From Ferrimonas futtsuensis DSM 18154 (lineage in GTDB: Bacteria; Pseudomonadota; Gammaproteobacteria; Enterobacterales; Shewanellaceae): DNA of 42,814 nt. Every line of letters begins with the position of its first letter. Positions within the stretch are counted from its first letter, which is position 1. Under the pieces are notes generated by a model. That model was not told the DNA's origin, ran no database searches, and saw only the letters and a list, made by a program, of their open reading frames with translations. The position numbers and the translations under genes were made by a program. Below are positions 6,131 through 32,887 of the stretch, in pieces. Location: positions 1 to 42,814 of the forward strand of contig NZ_AUGL01000030.1 in the NCBI RefSeq assembly GCF_000422645.1, given 5' to 3'.

Positions 6131-7030
6131 CTACCCAGGCTGCTCGGCAGTCCGCGTTGAACTCTTGCGGCTGCGCATCTGGCTGACCCCGACGCCTACC
6201 ATCACCAGCCCACAAGCCCCCAATTGCATCATGGTCATGCGTTCATCGAGGATGAGGTAGGCCAACACCAGGGTGAACACCGGAATCAAGTTGACGAAAC
6301 TGGCCGCCCGAGTCACCGGCATATGAGCGATGGCATAGTTGTAGAGCAGATAGGCTCCCAATGTCACAAAGGCGCCAAGGAAAACGATGGCAGCAATACC
6401 CTGATCATCCCAATGCCAGGGGTTACCCAGAGTCATCGCCAGCGGCGTAAAGAAAATCAAACCGGAGAAGGACATCAGCGCCGTCAGAGTCAGGGCAGAG
6501 TAGCGGCTGCTCAAGTGCTTAAGGCAGACGCTGCAGATAGCAGCACACAGCATGGCACCAAACTCAAGGGCATTCCCCAGCATGGGGTTGGGCGCCGCCT
6601 CTGAGCCATGTCCGTCGGTACCCAGCATCAGGACGCCGCCAATGGCGATGCTCAGACCAAAGACCGCGATGCGACTCAGGCGCTCCTTCAGGAAGATAAA
6701 AGCCACCACCGCAGTAAGCAGCGGCGCCAGAGAGGTCACCATGCCCGCCTGACCGGCACTGGTGTACTGAAGCGCCATGGCTTCAAGAATGAAGTAGAGG
6801 CAGGGTTCAGCCAGTACCAACAACAGCAGCACCTTCCAGTCACCGCGGCGATATTCAAAGCGCATAACCCGCTTCCACATCAACAGGAAACAAAGGGTTG
6901 CCACCCACATGCGGCCAGCAATCACTGTCCAGGGGTCATAACTCACAAACGCCAGCTTCAGGGCAATAAAGCTGCTGGCCCACAGCACCATGGCAAACAC
7001 CAGTGCACTTTCGGCGACTCTTCCTTTCAC
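6131..7030 (-). CDS. EamA/DMT-family transporter
   Basis: The 299-residue product has ten hydrophobic helices arranged as two EamA repeats. It begins with the typical ALVFAMVLWASSFIALK helix and contains the repeat-end pattern LAPLLTAVVAFIFLKERLS and, in the second half, LIPVFTLVLAYLILDERM. Members export amino acids, nucleotides or other metabolites across the inner membrane; substrate cannot be predicted. The frame is open back to an ATG at 7081, but that adds a charged Cys-rich stretch. The GTG at 7030 with GGAGAGGAT before it gives the usual start just ahead of helix 1, so I prefer it. Downstream it shares the bidirectional terminator at 6091-6118 with the convergent GGDEF-EAL gene. Confidence 0.9.
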   Translation of the reverse strand: MKGRVAESALVFAMVLWASSFIALKLAFVSYDPWTVIAGRMWVATLCFLLMWKRVMRFEYRRGDWKVLLLLVLAEPCLYFILEAMALQYTSAGQAGMVTSLAPLLTAVVAFIFLKERLSRIAVFGLSIAIGGVLMLGTDGHGSEAAPNPMLGNALEFGAMLCAAICSVCLKHLSSRYSALTLTALMSFSGLIFFTPLAMTLGNPWHWDDQGIAAIVFLGAFVTLGAYLLYNYAIAHMPVTRAASFVNLIPVFTLVLAYLILDERMTMMQLGACGLVMVGVGVSQMRSRKSSTRTAEQPG

Positions 7031-24528: not shown

Positions 24529-25275
24529 TCAGATCAATTGACACTGCCCCGCCCGATACACAAGCTGAGCAATGTTTCTGGCTTCCAGCAGCTCTTTGAG
24601 CACGCTGACGTGGTAGTCCACCCCCCGCAGAGTCAGCCTGAGCTGGGCAGAAACCTGCTCTCTGTCCTGCCCCTGAGCCAACAAACCCAGTATGTAGGCC
24701 GACAACGGATTGACGATGTTGTAATCCACCAGAGGATTGATGGACTTGCCAAACTCCAGGGCAATTTTGACTTGCAGCTGCTGCAGTTGCCGCAGAACCA
24801 TCTCGATTGTGGCGCTGACCTGAGCCACAGATTGGCTGTCCGGGATCAACAGGGTGAAGCGTCCTCGAAACTCCGGGGACAGAGGACAACGGACGCTAAA
24901 GGTCACCAGCGCCTCTATCCCGGCCTTGGTCAAGCGGCGGCTCATCACTACCGGCAGCTCCCGCATGGGCCAGAAGTAGACCTGCTGATTCCACACTCCC
25001 TCAAGAACATGGCCCAATCCCGGGTAATGACTCATCTGCTGCTGCCACAGCTGTGCGGCGGTGCCGCTGCTGGCAAAGAGCCGGCGGCGGCGAACAAAGC
25101 TGCGTATCATCTGCTCGCTGCTTTTTACCCTCCTGCACCACTTCGCTGGATGAGCGATGTCGTAGCAGTACCATATGCCCCCCAGGCCCAACTGTTCATT
25201 CAGGTCGGCCAGCATCTGCTGCAACCCATGATGATCGCCGCCCGGATCCTGCAGCTGTTTAGCGGCGGCACTCAT
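24529..25275 (-). CDS. LuxR-like regulator, last gene of the rdh operon
   Basis: The 248-residue protein ends in a helix-turn-helix of LuxR/GerE type: PLSAYILGLLAQGQDREQVS, then QLRLTLRGVDYHVSVLKELL and EARNIAQLVYRAG. The usual LSxREhEvL and SxRTVxxH positions are altered, so it is a divergent member. Residues 1-185 form an unknown sensor region, with an alpha/beta pattern reminiscent of autoinducer-type domains, but I cannot place it. The ATG at 25275 has GGGGAGG before it and overlaps the preceding gene by 17 bases, so it belongs to the rdhABC transcript. I infer that it controls the dehalogenase genes or the divergent channel gene, perhaps sensing the organohalide. Known rdh regulators are CprK (CRP family), MarR types and two-component systems, so a LuxR-like one would be unusual. 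Confidence 0.72.
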   Translation of the reverse strand: MSAAAKQLQDPGGDHHGLQQMLADLNEQLGLGGIWYCYDIAHPAKWCRRVKSSEQMIRSFVRRRRLFASSGTAAQLWQQQMSHYPGLGHVLEGVWNQQVYFWPMRELPVVMSRRLTKAGIEALVTFSVRCPLSPEFRGRFTLLIPDSQSVAQVSATIEMVLRQLQQLQVKIALEFGKSINPLVDYNIVNPLSAYILGLLAQGQDREQVSAQLRLTLRGVDYHVSVLKELLEARNIAQLVYRAGQCQLI

Positions 25276-25882
25276 GGCCAGCCTCCCCATTGGCTCTGAC
25301 GCTAAACACCCTGGGATCCCGGGCCTGAATCCGCTGCTCTACCTGAGTCAGCAAGGCCGCTGGCAACTCACCTTCGACCCTGACAAGGAGCCCCAACGCC
25401 TGATTAAACATCCCCAGCTGCCTGGACACCTCAACCGCCGTCATCACCTCTGTGGCCGTAGAGAGATCCAGCAAACCCAGAATCCTCTCCAGGTTGCGTC
25501 TCTCGCGGTCGCTCCAGACCACCTGAGATTCGCCGCGGCGATGACGGTGGTTGGCCAGCTGCCAGAGTTTGAGCCTCAGGTGCAACTGATGCTCCGACAG
25601 CTCCTCCCCATAGCTCCGGGTCAGCGCCCACAACTCCTCCTCGGTAAGGGCACGATAATCCACTCCATCAGAGCCTGTGGCGTCAGCCAACTCCGGCAAC
25701 CACACGCTACCCTGACAGTGGCCACAGGCCACCACCAAAGGCTGTTCGGGCACCGAGGGGCTGTCGACATAACCGTCGCTCCACAACTGGGCCAGTCGGG
25801 CATCCACCTGAAGAAGCGCACGAAATCTCAAGGCACCGCCACAGTGGCTGCAGGCGAGCCAGCGCTCAGGACCGTATCTCAT
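25259..25882 (-). CDS. Double-CxxC cysteine protein of the rdh operon, function unknown
   Basis: The 207-residue product has CSHC near residue 11 and CGHC near residue 53, spaced as in a zinc ribbon, at the N-terminus. The rest is helical, with ALTEEELWALTRSYGEELSEHQL and a Leu-rich C-terminal half and no signal peptide, so it is cytoplasmic. I do not recognise the family. Its ATG overlaps the stop codon of the 57-residue membrane peptide (ATGA), and its own end overlaps the LuxR-like start by 17 bases. The position suggests a metal, Fe-S or corrinoid handling role, or a chaperone for Tat export of RdhA, all inferred from position alone. Confidence 0.75.
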   Translation of the reverse strand: MRYGPERWLACSHCGGALRFRALLQVDARLAQLWSDGYVDSPSVPEQPLVVACGHCQGSVWLPELADATGSDGVDYRALTEEELWALTRSYGEELSEHQLHLRLKLWQLANHRHRRGESQVVWSDRERRNLERILGLLDLSTATEVMTAVEVSRQLGMFNQALGLLVRVEGELPAALLTQVEQRIQARDPRVFSVRANGEAGHECRR

Positions 25883-26052
25883 TGTGCCCCCCCTTCAGCC
25901 CAACCGAGCTGCTGAACAAAACGGTGCAGTACGCCGTCAGTGATGATGGATTCGGCCGCTCCCACAAAAAACAGCAGCACCAGCAACACGGTGACCACGC
26001 TCAGTAACTGGGAAATGGGGTGAGCCTCACCCCGGGATTTTACTCTGGACAT
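25879..26052 (-). CDS. 57-residue single-helix membrane peptide of the rdh operon
   Basis: The ATG at 26052 has AAGGAG five bases before it, inside the end of rdhC, and lies two bases after the rdhC stop. The product has a basic start (SRVKSRGEAHP), one hydrophobic helix (about residues 16-34, SQLLSVVTVLLVLLFFVGA) and a short polar tail. The open frame extends to 26121, within rdhC, but the extra codons are not protein-like. Its TGA overlaps the next start (ATGA). I know no family. Small membrane peptides often join or stabilise membrane oxidoreductases, so a role in the RdhABC complex is plausible, but unproven. Confidence 0.75.
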   Translation of the reverse strand: MSRVKSRGEAHPISQLLSVVTVLLVLLFFVGAAESIITDGVLHRFVQQLGWAEGGAQ

Positions 26053-26054
26053 GG

Positions 26055-27278
26055 TTACTCCTTGGTTTGCACAGCGATGGTGTGGCCGGCGCGTCGACGT
26101 TGGCTCAATCGATTGACCCACTTGCGCCGCAGTTTTACCGACTCATTGATGGTCAGGCCCACTGGGCAGAAGTAACGACACCAGAAATCCGGCACGAAAC
26201 AGGCACCAAACAGGGAGAGAGGCAGGATGTACCACTGCAGCCCAGTCCCCTCCAGGGCAAACATCATGGAGAAGGGCTCATAGGCGCCCATGGACGGATG
26301 GCGCGACAGGAAGATCAGCATCAGTGACGCCCAGATCATGCCCAGTACCAGTGAGCGGCCATGCTTGTTCAGCCACCTGGGCGCCTTCATATTGATGCCG
26401 GTGATCTTATGCAGCAACGATTGCACCGCCGCATAGGGGCACAACTTGTTGCAATAGAGGTTTCGCCCCAACACCACCACCCCCAGGACTATGGTCCCCA
26501 TCAGAATCCACCAGATGGGGTGCTGCTTGATGCTGGGCAGGTAGCCAAGCAGTATGCTCCCCAGGCTGCCGATGCTGATGGAGGCGTTGGTGTAGAACCC
26601 CACAAACAGCAGGGAAACCAGGGGAAGCGCCGTTTTCAGCCAGCTCATCGGCTTGCTTCGCCCACCGACGCTGACCGCCACGGCCCCCAGAGCCAGCAGC
26701 AGCATGCCCGCTTCCTCCCATCCGAAGACCCAGGGATCCGGTGTCCAGCTGGGTTCCAGCCCCAGATGCTTTACCGCGCCCAGGTGCAGGGATCCTCGCA
26801 GCGCCTGACTCACGCCCCGGGCAGTGACTGTGGCGCCGGAAAAGGAATCGATATCCGTGTCGAGCAGAAAGTCATCGGTGACGCTGGCACCGGCGAACTG
26901 GCGGAAAAACTGCATCTTCACCAGGCGCGCCACATAGGGTGGGGTTTCGCGATGCCCGATCAGGTGGACACCATGAACCCGGGCGCCCCCCTCGATGCGA
27001 CTGGCGGTGACCGCCACCTGCAATGGTCCGCCATAGCCCTGCCCCTCTCCGAGGATCACCACCTGGGGTTGATCAGGTTGACGGTTGACCCATTCGAGAA
27101 CCACCGGACCACCCTGGGTGTCCGCCTGCTCGACCAACTGGGCGCCGGGAAAGCTCTTAGCCAGCCGTGCGGGATAGTCAGGCTGGTTGCCAAGCTGGCC
27201 CGCGACAAACGCCAGGACCAGGCTCAGCCAGGCCACAAGGCTTAGCAGGGAGGAGGGATTCTGTAGTTTCTTACTCAT
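26055..27278 (-). CDS. rdhC: RdhC/NosR-like FMN and Fe-S membrane protein
   Basis: The 407-residue protein has an N-terminal membrane helix (9-27), a periplasmic FMN-binding domain with SGATVT at 147-152 (Thr152 is the expected covalent FMN site), then about five more helices and two short cysteine motifs, CNKLCP (Cys276, Cys280) and CRYFCP (Cys367, Cys371). This is the NosR/RdhC/PceC architecture. Such proteins are thought to move electrons from the quinol pool or inner membrane to periplasmic reductases. It is shorter than NosR because the C-terminal ferredoxin domain is absent, as in PceC. It starts 64 bp after rdhB and is followed at once by a small membrane gene. RdhC is often missing from other rdh loci, so its presence supports respiratory use here. 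Confidence 0.88.
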   Translation of the reverse strand: MSKKLQNPSSLLSLVAWLSLVLAFVAGQLGNQPDYPARLAKSFPGAQLVEQADTQGGPVVLEWVNRQPDQPQVVILGEGQGYGGPLQVAVTASRIEGGARVHGVHLIGHRETPPYVARLVKMQFFRQFAGASVTDDFLLDTDIDSFSGATVTARGVSQALRGSLHLGAVKHLGLEPSWTPDPWVFGWEEAGMLLLALGAVAVSVGGRSKPMSWLKTALPLVSLLFVGFYTNASISIGSLGSILLGYLPSIKQHPIWWILMGTIVLGVVVLGRNLYCNKLCPYAAVQSLLHKITGINMKAPRWLNKHGRSLVLGMIWASLMLIFLSRHPSMGAYEPFSMMFALEGTGLQWYILPLSLFGACFVPDFWCRYFCPVGLTINESVKLRRKWVNRLSQRRRAGHTIAVQTKE

Positions 27279-27342
27279 AATACGCTCTGAGAAATGGGGC
27301 CGTGCCGGAGGATGATCGGCACGGCCGTAGGCTGGCTGACGC

Positions 27343-27621
27343 TTACAGGCGGGCGCCCTTGGGGGCGTATTTGCGCCAGATGAAGGCCATCAGCAACAGT
27401 CCAGGCATGCAGAAGGCCGCCAGTCCCAGGGCGCCGGACTGAGGCACGTTCTCGATAAAGGAGCTCCCAGCCCAACCAATGCCGAACAGAAACATCAGGC
27501 CACCTGTGATCATCCCAACCCAGGCGGTCACCGGAAGCTGCGCCTTAACCGACAGATACGCCATTCCCTGCACACCCAGGGTGAACAGGATCCCCATGAT
27601 GAAAAATTCAATTAGTTCCAT
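27343..27621 (-). CDS. rdhB: Reductive dehalogenase membrane anchor RdhB
   Basis: The 92-residue protein has three hydrophobic helices, at about 5-25, 33-52 and 65-83, and the FGIGWAGSSFIENVPQSGALG segment that matches the W-x-GSS-x-E-x-P-Q/x-A pattern of PceB-type anchors. RdhB is thought to fix the extracytoplasmic RdhA to the inner membrane. The ATG at 27621 has a perfect AAGGAGG ribosome site five bases before it and lies 10 bases after the rdhA stop; the longer frame to 27645 overlaps rdhA and is less likely. Together with rdhA and rdhC it forms a complete core set. Confidence 0.9.
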   Translation of the reverse strand: MELIEFFIMGILFTLGVQGMAYLSVKAQLPVTAWVGMITGGLMFLFGIGWAGSSFIENVPQSGALGLAAFCMPGLLLMAFIWRKYAPKGARL

Positions 27622-27631
27622 GTTGTCCTCC

Positions 27632-29209
27632 TTATGAACGGCCAACGGCGCCGAACACGTTACGGTTGGTGGGGTTCACTCGCATCCCTTCACCTGTGTT
27701 CCAGAATTTCGCCACTTTGGTGGGATCCTGGGTGGCGCCATAGCCAAAGGCAGGGTGCATCTCAGACATCACTCCGTGCAGGGTCGCTGGCACGAAGGGG
27801 TTGGCGGCCACGATCATCCAGTGGTGCCAGAAGTCCGGCTCGTTGAAGGTACAGGCAGCATTACAGGCGGCGCAGTCGCCGTCGCTCTCCATCCAGTAGT
27901 CGAAACAACGCTTGGAATCGACATGGAACTTCTTGATCCCTTCATGGTTGTTCCAGTTGTAGCCGGGTTGCTCCGAGTGCTCGCCCACAAAGGTAAAGGT
28001 GGTGTCCTCATCCATGGGCAGAGCCTTGGAGGGACAGGCCTCGGCGCACTTCTTACAGGTTTTGCAGAAGTCTTCGATGCCCCAGGTACGTGGCTGATCG
28101 TGCTCGACAAACTCAAAATCGGTGTACACCTTGCACAGGCGAATTCGCGGGCCGTAGCCAGGTACAATCAGCTGACCGTTCCGGGCGCCCTCCCCCATGC
28201 CGGCGGCAATGCCATAAGCCACGGAGTTACCCAGATCGTTGCCCGAGGCTACGGCGTGGTAACCCAGGCCGCGGATAAACTTGGCCATCTGCGACGCCAG
28301 GGTCGCCATCTTGGTGTAACCGTCTCCCACGGTGCCTCCGGACGTAAAGGTGGGTGCGGTCGCCAGATTGTCATAATCCATGGGCACTGCCATGACGATC
28401 ACCGTCTTGGGAGTGAACGGGAAGTCTTTCTCCCAGGAAAGCTGCTTCTCAACCGGCTTAAACTCCTCCAGGGCGGCCATCATTGCCTTGCCCATCTCTT
28501 GTGGGTCGGTGATCTTGCTGACACCGCGACGGTCCATCTCTTCAAACATCTCCACCGTGGGGCCGGCGTGATAGATGGGATCGTAATCCCAGCGCTTATC
28601 CCGCTTGGCAATACCACAGCGGGCAGCGCCGAACAGCCGTGCGGCACTGCGGATGGCATTTGCCGCCTGCTGCTTGGAGGCAAACTGATACTGCTCATGC
28701 TCCATGTCAGACTGATCCCAGGAGAACCATATGGTGTCCGGTACCCCCATGGCCCCCAGGCGCAAATCCCACTTGTGAGGAGGGCACCAGGCCGCATGGG
28801 AGAGAGAGCGGTCAAGCTGGGTAAAACCCGGACGAGCGTTATCGTGCCCCTTCTGTTCGAAGCGCGGCACTTGCAGCTGGAAGTTGTAGTTGGGGTTGCC
28901 TTTCACCAACCGGCCAAACTGCTCGTTGCGCTCGGGGTGGCGCATCATCAGGAAGGGGCTGCCGGCGTAGGACCACATGTGGCTTTCGCCCGGGAAGGGC
29001 TGGAAGTCATCAGCCAGAATGGGCCACTGCTCATTGATCTTGCCTTCGATGGACGCACGCCCGGCTCCATAAGCACCTAAGCCCGCGGCCAGCACTGCAC
29101 CACCACCAATGGCTGCACGCTTAAACAGCTTGCGTCGTTCGGGGTTTTCCAATAAACCCTCATGATCCGTAGCGGACCGGGTATTTCCCTGGTTTCTATT
29201 TTCAGTCAT
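27632..29209 (-). CDS. rdhA: Corrinoid reductive dehalogenase catalytic subunit RdhA
   Basis: The 525-residue protein has a Tat signal (RRKLFK at 25-30, then a hydrophobic stretch) and two [4Fe-4S] motifs at Cys382, 385, 388, 392 and at Cys435, 446, 449, 453. Tyr298, Asn324 and Arg357 are spaced 26 and 33 residues apart, exactly as the catalytic Tyr246, Asn272 and Arg305 of Sulfurospirillum PceA. It should cleave carbon-halogen bonds with a cobamide cofactor outside the inner membrane, receiving electrons from RdhC or quinol. The substrate is unknown; PceA (chlorinated ethenes) is the closest reference that I can use. The frame opens at 29251, but the ATG at 29209 places the Tat signal as expected, although its ribosome site is weak. 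Similar genes are known in marine Shewanella and Ferrimonas-type bacteria. Confidence 0.94.
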   Translation of the reverse strand: MTENRNQGNTRSATDHEGLLENPERRKLFKRAAIGGGAVLAAGLGAYGAGRASIEGKINEQWPILADDFQPFPGESHMWSYAGSPFLMMRHPERNEQFGRLVKGNPNYNFQLQVPRFEQKGHDNARPGFTQLDRSLSHAAWCPPHKWDLRLGAMGVPDTIWFSWDQSDMEHEQYQFASKQQAANAIRSAARLFGAARCGIAKRDKRWDYDPIYHAGPTVEMFEEMDRRGVSKITDPQEMGKAMMAALEEFKPVEKQLSWEKDFPFTPKTVIVMAVPMDYDNLATAPTFTSGGTVGDGYTKMATLASQMAKFIRGLGYHAVASGNDLGNSVAYGIAAGMGEGARNGQLIVPGYGPRIRLCKVYTDFEFVEHDQPRTWGIEDFCKTCKKCAEACPSKALPMDEDTTFTFVGEHSEQPGYNWNNHEGIKKFHVDSKRCFDYWMESDGDCAACNAACTFNEPDFWHHWMIVAANPFVPATLHGVMSEMHPAFGYGATQDPTKVAKFWNTGEGMRVNPTNRNVFGAVGRS

Positions 29210-29773
29210 GGTTTTTCTCATATTCCAGGCCAAAATAAATTCGTCCAACACAAATTTGAAGGAATTATTTCGGACGTATCAGCTTCGATTCAATAATAGT
29301 AAAGCCAGCCAGAATCAAATAGACCAAACCAAACAACTCAGTATTTCACTATTGATAATTATATTGATCTTTATATGTAAAAACCTTTCTAATAAAAGGG
29401 GTTAGTTTCTTCTTATGGCCTTTCTTACCCGGCCAATGAGTTGTCAATTCTGGGATGCGCCTAACACTTTGCCATAAAACCCAATATCAACAGCAGTTTG
29501 CCGAGAAGCTTAGAGGTGTGTCACCGGCAGGCATCGCACCCGCACTCGGAGTGTCCCGGCCATGCAGGCGCACATAAAATCAGGTCAAATTAACAAAAGT
29601 GGAATAGAGTTTTTCCTGACGGAAAATAGTGAGATCAATAAAATGAAATTAATTTGTTCACTCTCACGAAATTGCTGCAAAGTCATACCGCCATTAATTT
29701 CGGCAGATATATAGTCCGCTGCAAACAATTACTCCAACAAAAACACCAAACCTTAAATATATAAGGGGGATAT
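29210..29773. other. AT-rich divergent regulatory region between rdhA and the FadL-like gene
   Basis: This 564-base gap is clearly more AT-rich than the genes around it and separates two divergent genes, so it must hold both promoters. I looked for FNR, CRP and LysR operator forms: GTGAGATCAA near 29629 and TTGTTCAC near 29654 form only a poor inverted pair, and no FNR box was found. A Shine-Dalgarno (AAGGGGGA) precedes the FadL-type ATG at 29774. I see no coding frame of note or RNA gene in it. A long AT-rich region between divergent respiratory and transport genes is typical of a regulated switch. Confidence 0.6.
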
Positions 29774-31024
29774 ATGAATTATCGACTCAGCACTATGGCG
29801 ATAATGGTAATGACAACCACTTCACTGTCTGTAGAAGCCAGTGGCATCCTGCGTGACGACACCGCGTCGGCCTATCTTGGCAGTGCCGGTGCCGGAAGAA
29901 CCACCGACACCAGCGCCGGTGCCGCCTTCAACAACCCTGCGGGGCTGGCCTATCTGGAGCAGAGGGAGGTCCAGGGCAGCTTGCTGCTGATTGAGGACAG
30001 TTTTAGCTTCCACGATCAGGGCTCAACCGGCACCAATCCAGACTATGAACGAAGACGCAAAAGCACCGACTATGGCATTGGCCTCAGCGGCGGCGGCTCC
30101 CTGTTCTATGGTCAACCGCTGAGCGAAGACTGGGGAATCGGATTGGCCCTGGCTTCCCCCGCCGGCGGAGCCACCGACTTTGGCGACAACTGGGCCGGAT
30201 CCAACTTCATTGAATCGGTGGAGGTAATGATCGGCGTCGCTCAAGCTTCCGTGGGCTACCGCATCAATGACCGATGGTCGGTGGGTGCCAGCCTGGGCAT
30301 CAGCTACATGAGTTGGGAGCTGACCCTGGATCCCTTCCCCGGTGCCGAAGAAACTCTCAAGCTGGACGATACCGAACTGGCCTGGGCCCTTGGGCTGCTC
30401 TACCGCCCCTGGCAGCACACCAGCCTGGGACTGCGCTATGTGGCCGGGGTAGAACATCAGCTTCGGGGAGAAACCAGCATGTCCACCCCTATGGGAGCCG
30501 TTCACGACCAGGCCAGCCAGCAGTTTAATCTGGCGGATCTGGTGACCTTCAGTGTGGAGCACAAGCTCACACCGGCTCTCAGCCTGATGGCAGACATCGA
30601 GTGGGCCCAGTGGTCTGATATGGACCGCAGCCTGATTGAACACGACAATGGTCCCACCATCTTAGTGCCCCGTAACTGGCAGGACGCCTGGAGCGGCGCC
30701 CTGGGTATCCATTACCAAGTCTCCTCTACGCTGACGCTGAAAACCGGCATCGCTTACGACGAGTCCGCCGTGTCCAAGGCCAATCACAAGCTGGATCCGC
30801 CAGTGGACCGTCAAATTGCTTACGCCGCCGGCCTGAGCTGGGCCCTGACCCCCAACACTCAGCTGGACCTCAGCTATCAGTACCTTGATCTGGGAGATAT
30901 CGAGGTCAACCAGGCCATCGAGGGGTTTGACCCAGTCGCCGGTCAGCCCTTCAGTCAGACGGTGTCCGGCCACTCCGAAGCCCATGTACACATCCTGAGC
31001 CTGGGACTGGCACACAGGTTCTGA
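29774..31024 (+). CDS. FadL/TodX-family outer-membrane channel
   Basis: The 416-residue protein has a signal peptide (first 24 residues, likely cut after VEASG or just before) and a plug region SAYLGSAGAGRTTDTSAGAAFNNPAG, split here into the typical FNNPAGLA motif, which is the FadL hallmark. The rest is a 14-stranded beta-barrel, with alternating aromatic residues and a C-terminal HILSLGLAHRF, ending in Phe as outer-membrane barrels do. Family members take up long-chain fatty acids or aromatic hydrocarbons. It is divergent from rdhA and next to a LysR gene, so I infer that it admits the hydrophobic organohalide, in parallel with TodX or XylN in aromatic degradation. General fatty-acid uptake is the alternative. 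Confidence 0.9.
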   Translation: MNYRLSTMAIMVMTTTSLSVEASGILRDDTASAYLGSAGAGRTTDTSAGAAFNNPAGLAYLEQREVQGSLLLIEDSFSFHDQGSTGTNPDYERRRKSTDYGIGLSGGGSLFYGQPLSEDWGIGLALASPAGGATDFGDNWAGSNFIESVEVMIGVAQASVGYRINDRWSVGASLGISYMSWELTLDPFPGAEETLKLDDTELAWALGLLYRPWQHTSLGLRYVAGVEHQLRGETSMSTPMGAVHDQASQQFNLADLVTFSVEHKLTPALSLMADIEWAQWSDMDRSLIEHDNGPTILVPRNWQDAWSGALGIHYQVSSTLTLKTGIAYDESAVSKANHKLDPPVDRQIAYAAGLSWALTPNTQLDLSYQYLDLGDIEVNQAIEGFDPVAGQPFSQTVSGHSEAHVHILSLGLAHRF

Positions 31025-31034
31025 TACCAGGTGG

Positions 31035-31069
31035 GTTTCCCCCAACGCCAGAAAGACGCTGGGGGAAAC
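31035..31069 (+). terminator. Hairpin after the FadL-type gene
   Basis: A 10-bp perfect stem (GTTTCCCCCA at 31035-31044 and TGGGGGAAAC at 31060-31069), with two more pairs inside, lies just after the stop codon. No T tract follows, so it may be a rho-assisted end or an mRNA 3' stabiliser. Confidence 0.5.
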
Positions 31070-31168
31070 TGCAACAAAGGCAGGTGAATTCCATCGCGCC
31101 ACTTGGGCGGCGATAAAACCACTGATACCCTTTGTGTCATTAGCCAACTACTTCTGGGTTGTCCCTCT

Positions 31169-32086
31169 ATGCATCAAGTCACTCTCGATGACATTCGCCT
31201 GGTTAACCAGATAGCCCGCCTGGGCAGCTTTGCCCGGGCCGCCGACTCCCTCTCTCTGCCCAGGCCCAGCGTCACCCGCAGAGTCAAACAGCTGGAGGCC
31301 CACCTGGGCGTCACCCTGTTTCAGCGCTCCACCCGCCAGTTGTCCCTGACCCAGGAGGGGGAGGCCTTCCTGGAGCACAGCCTCAACATAGAGCAGCACT
31401 GGCAAACCGCCACCGAACAGATGAAGAGTGCCAGCGGTGAGCCCGTGGGCCGCCTCAGAGTCAGTGCCCTGGGCCTGTTCAACCGGGTCATTGCCGGCCC
31501 GGTACTGTCCCGCTTCGTCAAAACCTACCCGGGCATCGATCTGGAGCTCAAGTCCACCTGGTCCCCGCCGGATGCCACCAAATTCGATGTGGACCTGATG
31601 TTCAATACCAAACCCCTGGAGGACAAGAGCTTCGTCAACGAGCCCCTGTCTCTGACTCAGAGGGACTTCTACGCCAGCCGCGACTACCTGGAGCGCAGAG
31701 GCAGCCCGGGCAGCATCACCGAGTTGGCAGACCACGACCTGGTGGTACTCAACTACACCGACTTCAAGGATGGAGACTGGCTGTGGCAAGACGGAGAGCA
31801 GCAGAGGACCCTGCAGGTAAAAAGCAATCTGATGCTGGATGAAGCCGAAGCGGCCCTGCAGATGACCCTGCTGGGCCACGGCATCTGCTGGCTGCCGGAT
31901 TTCTGCTGTGACAAGTACCTGGAGAGCGGCGAGATGGTGCGCCTGTTTGAGGGCCGCCATGCGACCCCAGGCCCCTTGTGGGCCATCTACCCCAGGACCC
32001 CATTTGAAAATCAGCGTCTGAGGCTGTTTATCGAGATGGCCAGAGACAGTCAACTGCTGGGCAAGCCTGCCCCGGCCCAGAACTGA
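31169..32086 (+). CDS. LysR-family regulator beside the organohalide genes
   Basis: The 305-residue protein has a standard LysR N-terminus (residues about 5-65, DDIRLVNQIARLGSFARAAD, PRPSVTRRVKQLEAHLG and LFQRSTRQLSLTQEG) and a sensor domain from about 90 to 300. Its layout is that of the CrgA/YafC-like branch. The frame opens at a TTG at 31103, but the ATG at 31169 gives the normal length. It follows the FadL-type gene by 144 bp and its stop codon touches the stop codon of the deiodinase-like gene (32086/32087), so it sits inside the putative organohalide cluster. I infer local control of the channel or of that gene; the ligand is unknown. Confidence 0.88.
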   Translation: MHQVTLDDIRLVNQIARLGSFARAADSLSLPRPSVTRRVKQLEAHLGVTLFQRSTRQLSLTQEGEAFLEHSLNIEQHWQTATEQMKSASGEPVGRLRVSALGLFNRVIAGPVLSRFVKTYPGIDLELKSTWSPPDATKFDVDLMFNTKPLEDKSFVNEPLSLTQRDFYASRDYLERRGSPGSITELADHDLVVLNYTDFKDGDWLWQDGEQQRTLQVKSNLMLDEAEAALQMTLLGHGICWLPDFCCDKYLESGEMVRLFEGRHATPGPLWAIYPRTPFENQRLRLFIEMARDSQLLGKPAPAQN

Positions 32087-32764
32087 TCACAGGAAGCTTG
32101 AGATCTCCTCAAGGGACTTCTTGTGGGTCGCATGAAGCGGTATGGTGGCACCCTTTGCCGGATAACCCGCCACAATCAGCATATAGGGGCGCTCGTTATC
32201 GCCACGGCCACACACCTTGGAGAGGAAACTCATCGGCTTAGGGGTGTGGGTCAGGGTCGCCAGGCCGCTGGTGTGCAACGCATTAAGCAAAAAACCGGTG
32301 GCAATGCCTACGGATTCATGCACGTAGTAGTTGGTGGTTTCCCCATCGTCGTGCATCCCACCCCGCTTCTTGCTGAACACCGCAATCAACCAGGGGGCGA
32401 TCTCCAGGTAGGGCTTATTGGCATCGGTGCCTAAAGGCTTCAGGGCTTTGAGCCACTCTTCACCCGCGCGCTTCTCGTCATAGAACCCCCGCTCCTGCAA
32501 CTCGGCGTGTTCTCGGATCTGTTTCTTCACCTCATCAGAGCGGATGGCCACAAAGTGCCAGGGCTGGTGATTGGCACCACTGGGGGCACTGCCCGCGGCC
32601 AGCAGACAGTTCTCAATCACCTCCTGGGGAACAGGGCGATCCGAGAAACTGCGAACGGAGTGACGCCGGCGCAGATGTGCCAGGTGCTCAGACGATCGCT
32701 GAACCATCTGCTCGGCGTCATATTCGACAAAATCATCGAGGGGGATACGGTCGTGGGGCTGCAT
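32087..32764 (-). CDS. Nitroreductase-family flavoprotein, iodotyrosine deiodinase-like
   Basis: The 225-residue FMN protein follows the nitroreductase plan with RRRHSVRSFS (32-41), AGSAPSGANHQPW (57-69) and GLATLTHTP. It is closer to iodotyrosine deiodinase (IYD) than to NfsA/NfsB: MVQRS near the N-terminus, RPVPQEVIE, YLEIAPWLIAVF, NYYVHESVGIATG and GYPAKGATIP all match IYD by eye. The three residues that bind halotyrosine in human IYD (Glu157, Tyr161, Lys182) correspond to Glu91, Tyr95 and Lys117, with one extra residue before the Lys. Such enzymes remove iodide or bromide from halotyrosines using NAD(P)H-derived electrons; bacterial homologues are known. I chose the ATG at 32764 for its AAGGAG at nine bases; a GTG at 32770 is possible. 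Confidence 0.85.
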   Translation of the reverse strand: MQPHDRIPLDDFVEYDAEQMVQRSSEHLAHLRRRHSVRSFSDRPVPQEVIENCLLAAGSAPSGANHQPWHFVAIRSDEVKKQIREHAELQERGFYDEKRAGEEWLKALKPLGTDANKPYLEIAPWLIAVFSKKRGGMHDDGETTNYYVHESVGIATGFLLNALHTSGLATLTHTPKPMSFLSKVCGRGDNERPYMLIVAGYPAKGATIPLHATHKKSLEEISSFL

Positions 32765-32860
32765 GCACACTCACTCCTTGTGAAAGCTTATAGAGTAATG
32801 CTAACACCAAGAGCGCATTGAACAAGTTTTCCCCGGGAAGATTGCGCATTTAGAAAAACA

Positions 32861-32887
32861 AAAGCCCCGGCACTGGGCCGGGGCTTT
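32861..32887 (-). terminator. Terminator of the EF-G gene
   Basis: An 11-bp perfect stem (AAAGCCCCGGC and GCCGGGGCTTT) with a 5-base loop lies 18 bases after the EF-G stop. On the minus strand it is followed by TTTTGTTTTTC, a good T tract. Confidence 0.92.

Follow-up and report, generated by a model that had tools for sequence, protein, structure and literature searches.

How a hydrophobic organohalide crosses a lipopolysaccharide (LPS)-covered outer membrane to reach a dehalogenase on the periplasmic side has, to our knowledge, not been worked out for Gram-negative organohalide reducers. This question is raised by a locus in Ferrimonas futtsuensis DSM 18154, where a reductive dehalogenase gene (rdhA) lies back to back with a gene for an outer-membrane channel of the FadL/TodX family. 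The window analysed here is the whole 42,814-nt stretch of contig NZ_AUGL01000030.1 (GCF_000422645.1), and coordinates refer to it unless a locus is named; numbers with the prefixes G and L are our handles for genomes and loci. An initial annotation had grouped the channel, rdhA, a LysR gene and an iodotyrosine deiodinase (IYD)-like gene in one organohalide-use island. Each gene that it named was found again in its place, using Pfam and NCBIfam profiles and structural relatives. Their grouping is drawn differently here: positions 24529-32086 quite likely form a self-contained organohalide-reduction unit, LysR-FadL-rdhABC-ZnR-LuxR, in which the FadL channel would be reserved for letting a hydrophobic organohalide through the outer membrane and would be co-regulated with RdhA.

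The dehalogenase and the channel

The rdhA gene (27632-29251, minus strand; probable start ATG at 29209) encodes a protein scoring above the curated TIGR02486 cut-off (196.2 bits against 160.35). The PF13486 profile had no match in the protein's own genome and none in the controls either, and is thus uninformative. Among solved PceA enzymes, RdhA aligns with 8q4h at E 5.8e-61 and with 4uqu at E 2.5e-43. Two sets of four cysteines for iron-sulphur clusters (C396/C399/C402/C406 and C449/C460/C463/C467) are invariant among 11 aligned RdhAs, as are Y312, N338 and R371, which we take to be the catalytic residues and which align with Y246, N272 and R305 of 4uqu (counted on the alignment). At the N terminus, RRKLFK is followed by a hydrophobic stretch (read by eye), with R39, R40 and K44 invariant in the same 11 proteins. 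RdhA is probably a reductive dehalogenase of the corrinoid/4Fe-4S type exported by the twin-arginine translocation (Tat) pathway, both export and activity being predicted.

The channel gene (29774-31024, plus strand) matches PF03349 with 203.4 bits (cut-off 29.7). The modelled fold matches FadL/TodX structures in Foldseek, the best being 3dwo (E 2.7e-24, template-modelling score 0.73), with 3bs0, 6z34 and 3bry also among the matches; when the folds are aligned, sequence identity to these solved channels is only 15-19%. An NPA motif is invariant in six aligned orthologs. Substrates of FadL channels generally bypass the LPS leaflet by diffusing laterally, and part of one published account describes TodX and CymD as moving hydrophobic pollutants in this way (PMC7728783).

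Linkage of the channel to rdhA

Orthologs of rdhA were sought in 116 genomes of the family, including 14 of Ferrimonas. Four of these 14 (G000, G025, G023 and G031) carry one, at 86-97% identity, and exactly the same four carry a FadL ortholog (63-93%), the next relatives of the channel being at most 30% identical. The order LysR-FadL-rdhA-rdhB-rdhC-ZnR-LuxR is kept in all four. A close rdhA (77-80%) is also present in four of 129 Shewanella genomes, three of which have a FadL ortholog (64-66%), each beside rdhA. FadL therefore adjoins rdhA in seven of the eight genomes with a close rdhA ortholog, across two genera, and in all seven genomes that have the channel; no FadL ortholog of at least 62% identity was found away from rdhA in these 143 Ferrimonas and Shewanella genomes. 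The synteny comparison proposed in the initial annotation thus upholds the pairing, which, as judged from gene order, is more than chance.

A wider set comprised 79 rdhA loci, one genome per species, from the best 80 of the 98 relatives that two peptide patterns had detected. Searched with phmmer and a profile built from ten sequences, five of the 79 had FadL, namely two Ferrimonas and three Shewanella loci (S. canadensis, S. atlantica and an uncultured isolate). The three Shewanella units have the same order, LysR-FadL-rdhAB-ZnR-LuxR, with rdhC missing, and LysR adjoins FadL in all seven FadL-bearing loci. In a 95-row tree of RdhA, the seven FadL-linked proteins form one set with that of Shewanella 4-1428 (L079/G119), at a support of 100 in the Shimodaira-Hasegawa-like approximate likelihood-ratio test (SH-aLRT). 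Because the FadL-linked RdhAs form one clade, the linkage could be a single event and is counted as one.

A second channel family in the same position

In other rdh clusters of Ferrimonas and Shewanella, the divergent slot between LysR and rdhA is held by a different protein of about 315 residues, which matches Phenol_MetA_deg (PF13557; 139-161 bits in five proteins and 154-204 bits in five more). Its model, with a mean predicted local distance difference test (pLDDT) score of 69.6, best matches the COG4313 outer-membrane channel 4rl8 (E 2.6e-10). A profile search placed such a channel in 12 of the 79 rdhA loci. Among the 18 Ferrimonas and Shewanella loci outside the FadL clade, it occupies the slot in eight and lies downstream of rdhB on the rdhA strand in two. 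A COG4313 gene also stands directly upstream of rdhA in L146 (Bacteroidota), L097 (Desulfobacterales) and L073 (G002), whose RdhAs fall outside the main clade of the tree. PF13557 was also counted in 13 genomes, the majority of which were known to have rdh genes and were selected for that reason: of 28 matches at E 1e-20 or better, 15 are within 2.5 kb of an rdhA match. Both PF13557 genes of G000 lie away from rdhA. A FadL or COG4313 gene is found within 2.5 kb of rdhA in 14 of the 25 loci with LysR at most 4 kb from rdhA and in two of the 54 without (Fisher p 3e-7, a value that is too small because the loci are related and not independent).

COG4313 channels are thought to import hydrophobic molecules, and TcpY, in a trichlorophenol operon, has been proposed as an importer of trichlorophenol, according to part of one study (PMC4493636). 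By sequence, COG4313 in the slot is an independent recruitment of a second channel family. That two unrelated hydrophobic channels occupy one slot beside one enzyme family is the best reason to suppose that the channel acts for the dehalogenase. OprD-family porins are perhaps a third family beside rdhA: in Parendozoicomonas haliclonae (L143), such genes (PF03573; 5461-6930 and 10199-11605) lie upstream of both rdhA genes. It is conceivable, with slightly less than an even chance in our estimation, that the rdh clusters of Gram-negative marine organohalide reducers each carry their own substrate-matched channel, taken from unrelated barrel families (FadL, COG4313, perhaps OprD), as a general and modular outer-membrane step, placed between LysR and rdhA and co-induced, so that the type of channel would predict the class of organohalide.

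Two further observations concern this position. In L116 a divergent gene beside rdhA (6168-6998) encodes a 277-aa protein that resembles a small barrel by eye and has no Pfam match. The gaps between COG4313 and rdhA in L104, L106, L110, L112-L114, L118 and L125 have a TTTTTGCAAA-like stretch in common, to which a different regulator may bind.

Paired sites in the divergent control region

The channel had been described as divergent from rdhA, and this holds across the region 29252-29773, which has 38.7% GC against 57.1% for the window. The seven FadL-rdhA gaps, when aligned, have in common a block around CAAATAGA...AACAACTCA...ATTTCACTTTTGATAATT, at about 29315-29363 in the window. The core of the block recurs inverted nearer to FadL, so that each gene is preceded by one copy and both copies have the same orientation towards their gene. 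Site 1, AATTATCAATAGTGAAAT (29343-29360, minus strand), lies 134 bp upstream of the rdhA ATG with one mismatch to the 18-bp consensus, and site 2, AATTAACAAAAGTGGAAT (29588-29605, plus strand, inverted relative to site 1), lies 169 bp upstream of the FadL ATG with two. They are the sole places in the window with three mismatches or fewer, and the exact pattern match at site 1 is unique in G000. With the first site removed, the number of dinucleotide shuffles (n=300) that gave as good a second site was 0 for the window and for L039 and L078, 1 for L076, 3 for L077, 11 for L075 and 217 for L074; the second site is thus good in five of the seven loci, and the pair as such is clear in six. All 11 places with at most three mismatches in 149,479 bases of the seven loci are in the FadL-rdhA gap. 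The exact pattern occurs seven times in ten genomes, again always in the gap (once each in G000, G025 and G117, twice each in G116 and G118), a recovery that is expected because the pattern was made from these sites. There was no exact match in G023 or G031, and no exact copy outside the gap in the ten genomes, upstream of the IYD-like gene included. Since an inverted site is common to both upstream regions, the paired sites suggest co-regulation of FadL and rdhA.

In G205 one of the one-mismatch places is about 1.1 kb past an rdhA match, and no weight is placed on it. The gap between FadL and LysR contains a strong hairpin with no T run (31034-31070, plus strand; -20.6 kcal/mol, equalled by 7 of 200 shuffles, z -2.03), which may separate the transcription of FadL from that of LysR.

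Proposed mechanism and alternative explanations

In the mechanism that we propose, a hydrophobic organohalide would leave the cell surface through the FadL barrel, bypassing the LPS leaflet by lateral diffusion, and meet RdhA, exported by Tat to the periplasmic face, where it might serve in respiration. No inner-membrane importer would be needed, because the Tat-type N terminus predicts that RdhA is exported. RdhC and RdhB would feed and anchor RdhA. One regulator, most likely the LysR or the LuxR protein of the unit, would bind the 18-bp site upstream of both divergent genes and so switch channel and enzyme on together.

The initial annotation had offered a larger scheme, a single island with two regulators whose FadL channel would supply both RdhA and the IYD-like enzyme as dehalogenases. 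The IYD-like nitroreductase gene (32087-32770, minus strand) does adjoin LysR in the window and in G025, and is less than 5 kb from rdhA in L074 and L075 too. Its product is deiodinase-like: the closest solved relative is the bacterial iodotyrosine deiodinase 5ko7 (E 6.3e-62), followed by chains of iodotyrosine deiodinase 1 (E ~1e-39), and E93, Y97 and K119 align by eye with the Glu, Tyr and Lys that we take to form the IYD substrate lid. The enzyme would, however, be cytoplasmic and use NAD(P)H, unlike RdhA. Its gene converges with LysR, lacks the 18-bp site upstream and is absent from the flanks fetched for the three Shewanella units. It also occurs without rdhA in two of six genomes. In G007 the genes for elongation factor G (EF-G), IYD and AidB follow in a row, with no unit gene within the 20 kb fetched. 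In a fifth Ferrimonas, G021 (L044 16420-17531), residues ~87-306 of LysR abut residues ~116-253 of LuxR, with IYD and AidB flanking and no match to FadL, rdhABC or ZnR; by sequence this is a deletion scar of the unit, and with the two pieces abutting, the whole interior was therefore lost as a block. The initial annotation had asked whether the channel, LysR and the IYD-like gene ever occur together in relatives that lack rdhABC. In G021 a LysR fragment and IYD do so, this LysR being what a deletion left of the gene, but the channel was never found without rdhA. Because G007 and G021 keep IYD without rdhABC, the true unit, as delimited by these comparisons, is the stretch from LuxR (24529) to LysR (32086), and IYD, a neighbour only, belongs to an EF-G-IYD-AidB flank. 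Membership of the IYD-like gene in the unit is rejected on account of its occurrence in G007 and G021, its lack of a site and its absence from the fetched Shewanella flanks, and the island with two dehalogenases is very improbable.

Two other explanations keep the pairing and give the channel another purpose. It might import a signal, that is, a hydrophobic inducer or a quorum signal to which the LuxR- or LysR-type protein would respond. LuxR-type relatives lie less than 6 kb from rdhA in 12 of the 79 loci, ten of which have a FadL or COG4313 channel, and FadL channels have been suggested to matter in quorum sensing, again in part of the account cited above (PMC7728783). Yet the LuxR-type protein has GerE as its sole Pfam match and no signal-binding domain was found in it, LuxR and channel also occur apart among the 79 loci, and the slot is held by channels of two families that are not related to each other, pollutant uptake being known for each. 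Signal import is accordingly quite improbable in our view. Alternatively, the channel may be for some other lipid or hydrocarbon, or for stress tolerance, and be linked to rdhA because both are inherited in one block of genes. This would fit the single clade of FadL-bearing RdhAs, as well as L079, where RdhA would work without FadL as predicted from its genes. It fits less well with a FadL-rdhA link that persists though the surroundings differ between Ferrimonas and Shewanella, with the paired sites that the two genes have in common, and with a different channel in the same place in sister clusters, and we regard it as unlikely.

Several findings weigh against a dedicated, co-regulated FadL entry for the substrate of RdhA. 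Confidence in the FadL model is modest (mean pLDDT 63.9), and residues 1-59, the plug region, are modelled below 50. Shewanella 4-1428 has a close rdhA (76-77%) and no FadL ortholog, its only FadL relatives being at most 30% identical, and the channel is thus not essential; the gene order there is rdhABC-ZnR-LuxR, LysR being on the other side. Neither channel is present in eight of the 18 Ferrimonas and Shewanella loci outside the FadL clade, nor within 2.5 kb in 11 of the 25 rdhA loci with LysR near and 52 of the 54 without it. As for the sites, the consensus was chosen after viewing the alignment. F. kyonanensis (L074) is without a convincing second site, F. sediminum (L075) has only four-mismatch sites and is marginal, and neither has an exact match. 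One-mismatch places number 14 in the ten genomes, of which one is in the gap and 13 are elsewhere, against 11 in a backward control. Twelve regions upstream of rdhA in other loci, COG4313 clusters among those scanned, gave nothing better than four mismatches. On the last two counts, the site is rejected as the mark of a general rdh regulon.

Other genes of the unit and its surroundings

On the rdhA side of the channel, all genes are on the minus strand. The rdhB position (27343-27645) is held by a small, membrane-like protein of 100 aa without a Pfam or NCBIfam match, assigned by position and by its conservation beside rdhA in relatives. The RdhC-like membrane flavoprotein (26055-27278) has FMN_bind (PF04205, 41.2 bits) and Fer4_5 (PF12801, 28.0 bits) domains, with SGAT and two CxxxCP motifs read by eye. 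Next is a gene missed by the initial annotation (25259-25882), for a conserved 207-aa protein with two CxxC pairs, for which ZnR is the provisional label chosen here. It has no Pfam or NCBIfam match, and among the 79 loci it is present in only eight (L074-L081), all those closest to the window RdhA. ZnR is possibly a maturation factor or a co-regulator. Overlapping it is the last gene on this side (24529-25290), for a LuxR-type regulator whose GerE helix-turn-helix match (PF00196) is barely above the cut-off (24.5 bits against 23.5). The outer gene at the opposite end is that of the LysR-type regulator (31169-32086, plus strand; ATG at 31169; PF00126 and PF03466). The unit genes have 57-62% GC and the window 57%, so there is no compositional sign of recent import.

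In the window and in G025 the unit has IYD on one side and AidB on the other, whereas in G023 and G031 its place is beyond AidB. On whether it was inserted twice near AidB, the flanks beyond LuxR in G023 and G031 are unlike the flanks beyond AidB in G007 and G000. In the window the EF-G gene follows the IYD-like gene, with a strong, terminator-like hairpin between them (32861-32887). In the other eight Ferrimonas genomes, the flanks fetched around EF-G, about 8 kb or more to each side, contain neither IYD nor AidB; the EF-G match of G033 (L055 8842-10944) is reported with one in-frame TGA.

Further features were seen beside rdhA in the wider set. Upstream of rdhA in L079, at the place where FadL would be expected, there is a remnant of a LuxR-type gene (1060-1341), perhaps of a rearranged unit. 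Repeated tRNA-Met-like stretches (1-1000), a possible integration site, also lie upstream there, and ARAGORN finds one intact tRNA-Met (273-349). A protein of 217-258 aa is encoded directly upstream of rdhA in nine loci (L088-L090, L094-L096, L098, L099 and L101); the only copy scanned, that of L096, is an FKBP-type prolyl isomerase, perhaps a maturation chaperone. In 15 Bacteroidota loci within L126-L144, a gene for 357-394 aa stands beside rdhA, and the one scanned (L127) encodes an AraC-type regulator.

Relation to known systems and significance

Among the closest parallels are the channels TodX, CymD and TbuX of aerobic aromatic-degradation operons, which are of the same family and fold (PF03349) and are likewise encoded beside the enzymes that use the substrate. 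The partner here differs, being a reductive dehalogenase that is divergently transcribed and predicted to be exported by Tat. TcpY and other COG4313 channels (Pput2725, SphA) have PF13557 relatives in the slot of sister rdh clusters, whereas the window channel is a FadL; the pathway that TcpY partners is presumably oxidative. With the respiratory rdhABC of Sulfurospirillum, Desulfitobacterium and Dehalobacter (PceA), the unit has in common the RdhA family, the catalytic residues, the iron-sulphur motifs and an RdhC-like protein. Control of such clusters is ascribed, in the relevant part of one paper, to CRP/FNR, two-component or MarR proteins (PMC12090745), whereas LysR and LuxR types flank the window unit.

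No outer-membrane channel was described for respiratory rdhABC clusters in the open-licence literature searched, nor was an open-licence paper found that combines reductive dehalogenase, LysR, LuxR and rdhA. In the sections available of one paper on reductive dehalogenases and the outer membrane, porins concern electron uptake (PMC12503164). The open-licence paper found to name both FadL and a reductive dehalogenase deals with cholesterol, and the dehalogenase comes up there in a reference only. The claim that a FadL-type channel paired with a reductive dehalogenase is an undescribed combination is borne out to this extent, as no such pairing was found in the same literature, and the novelty is provisional. 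The presence of rdh genes in Ferrimonas is itself already known, because RdhC sequences were counted in Ferrimonas, Vibrio and Photobacterium, as given in part of PMC5928378. The FadL importer and RdhA are well supported as a predicted genetic unit. The comparison argues that the locus belongs among the known systems that pair pollutant uptake with an enzyme, with rdhA as a new partner and added interest from the second channel family.

A channel co-regulated with the rdhA beside it would make the outer-membrane step testable with a single gene deletion. The LysR- and LuxR-type regulators and the defined 18-bp site would be added to a field that describes CRP/FNR, two-component and MarR control. 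With two channel types found beside two clades of RdhA, the type of channel may also be a clue to the substrates of the many uncharacterised RdhAs of marine bacteria.

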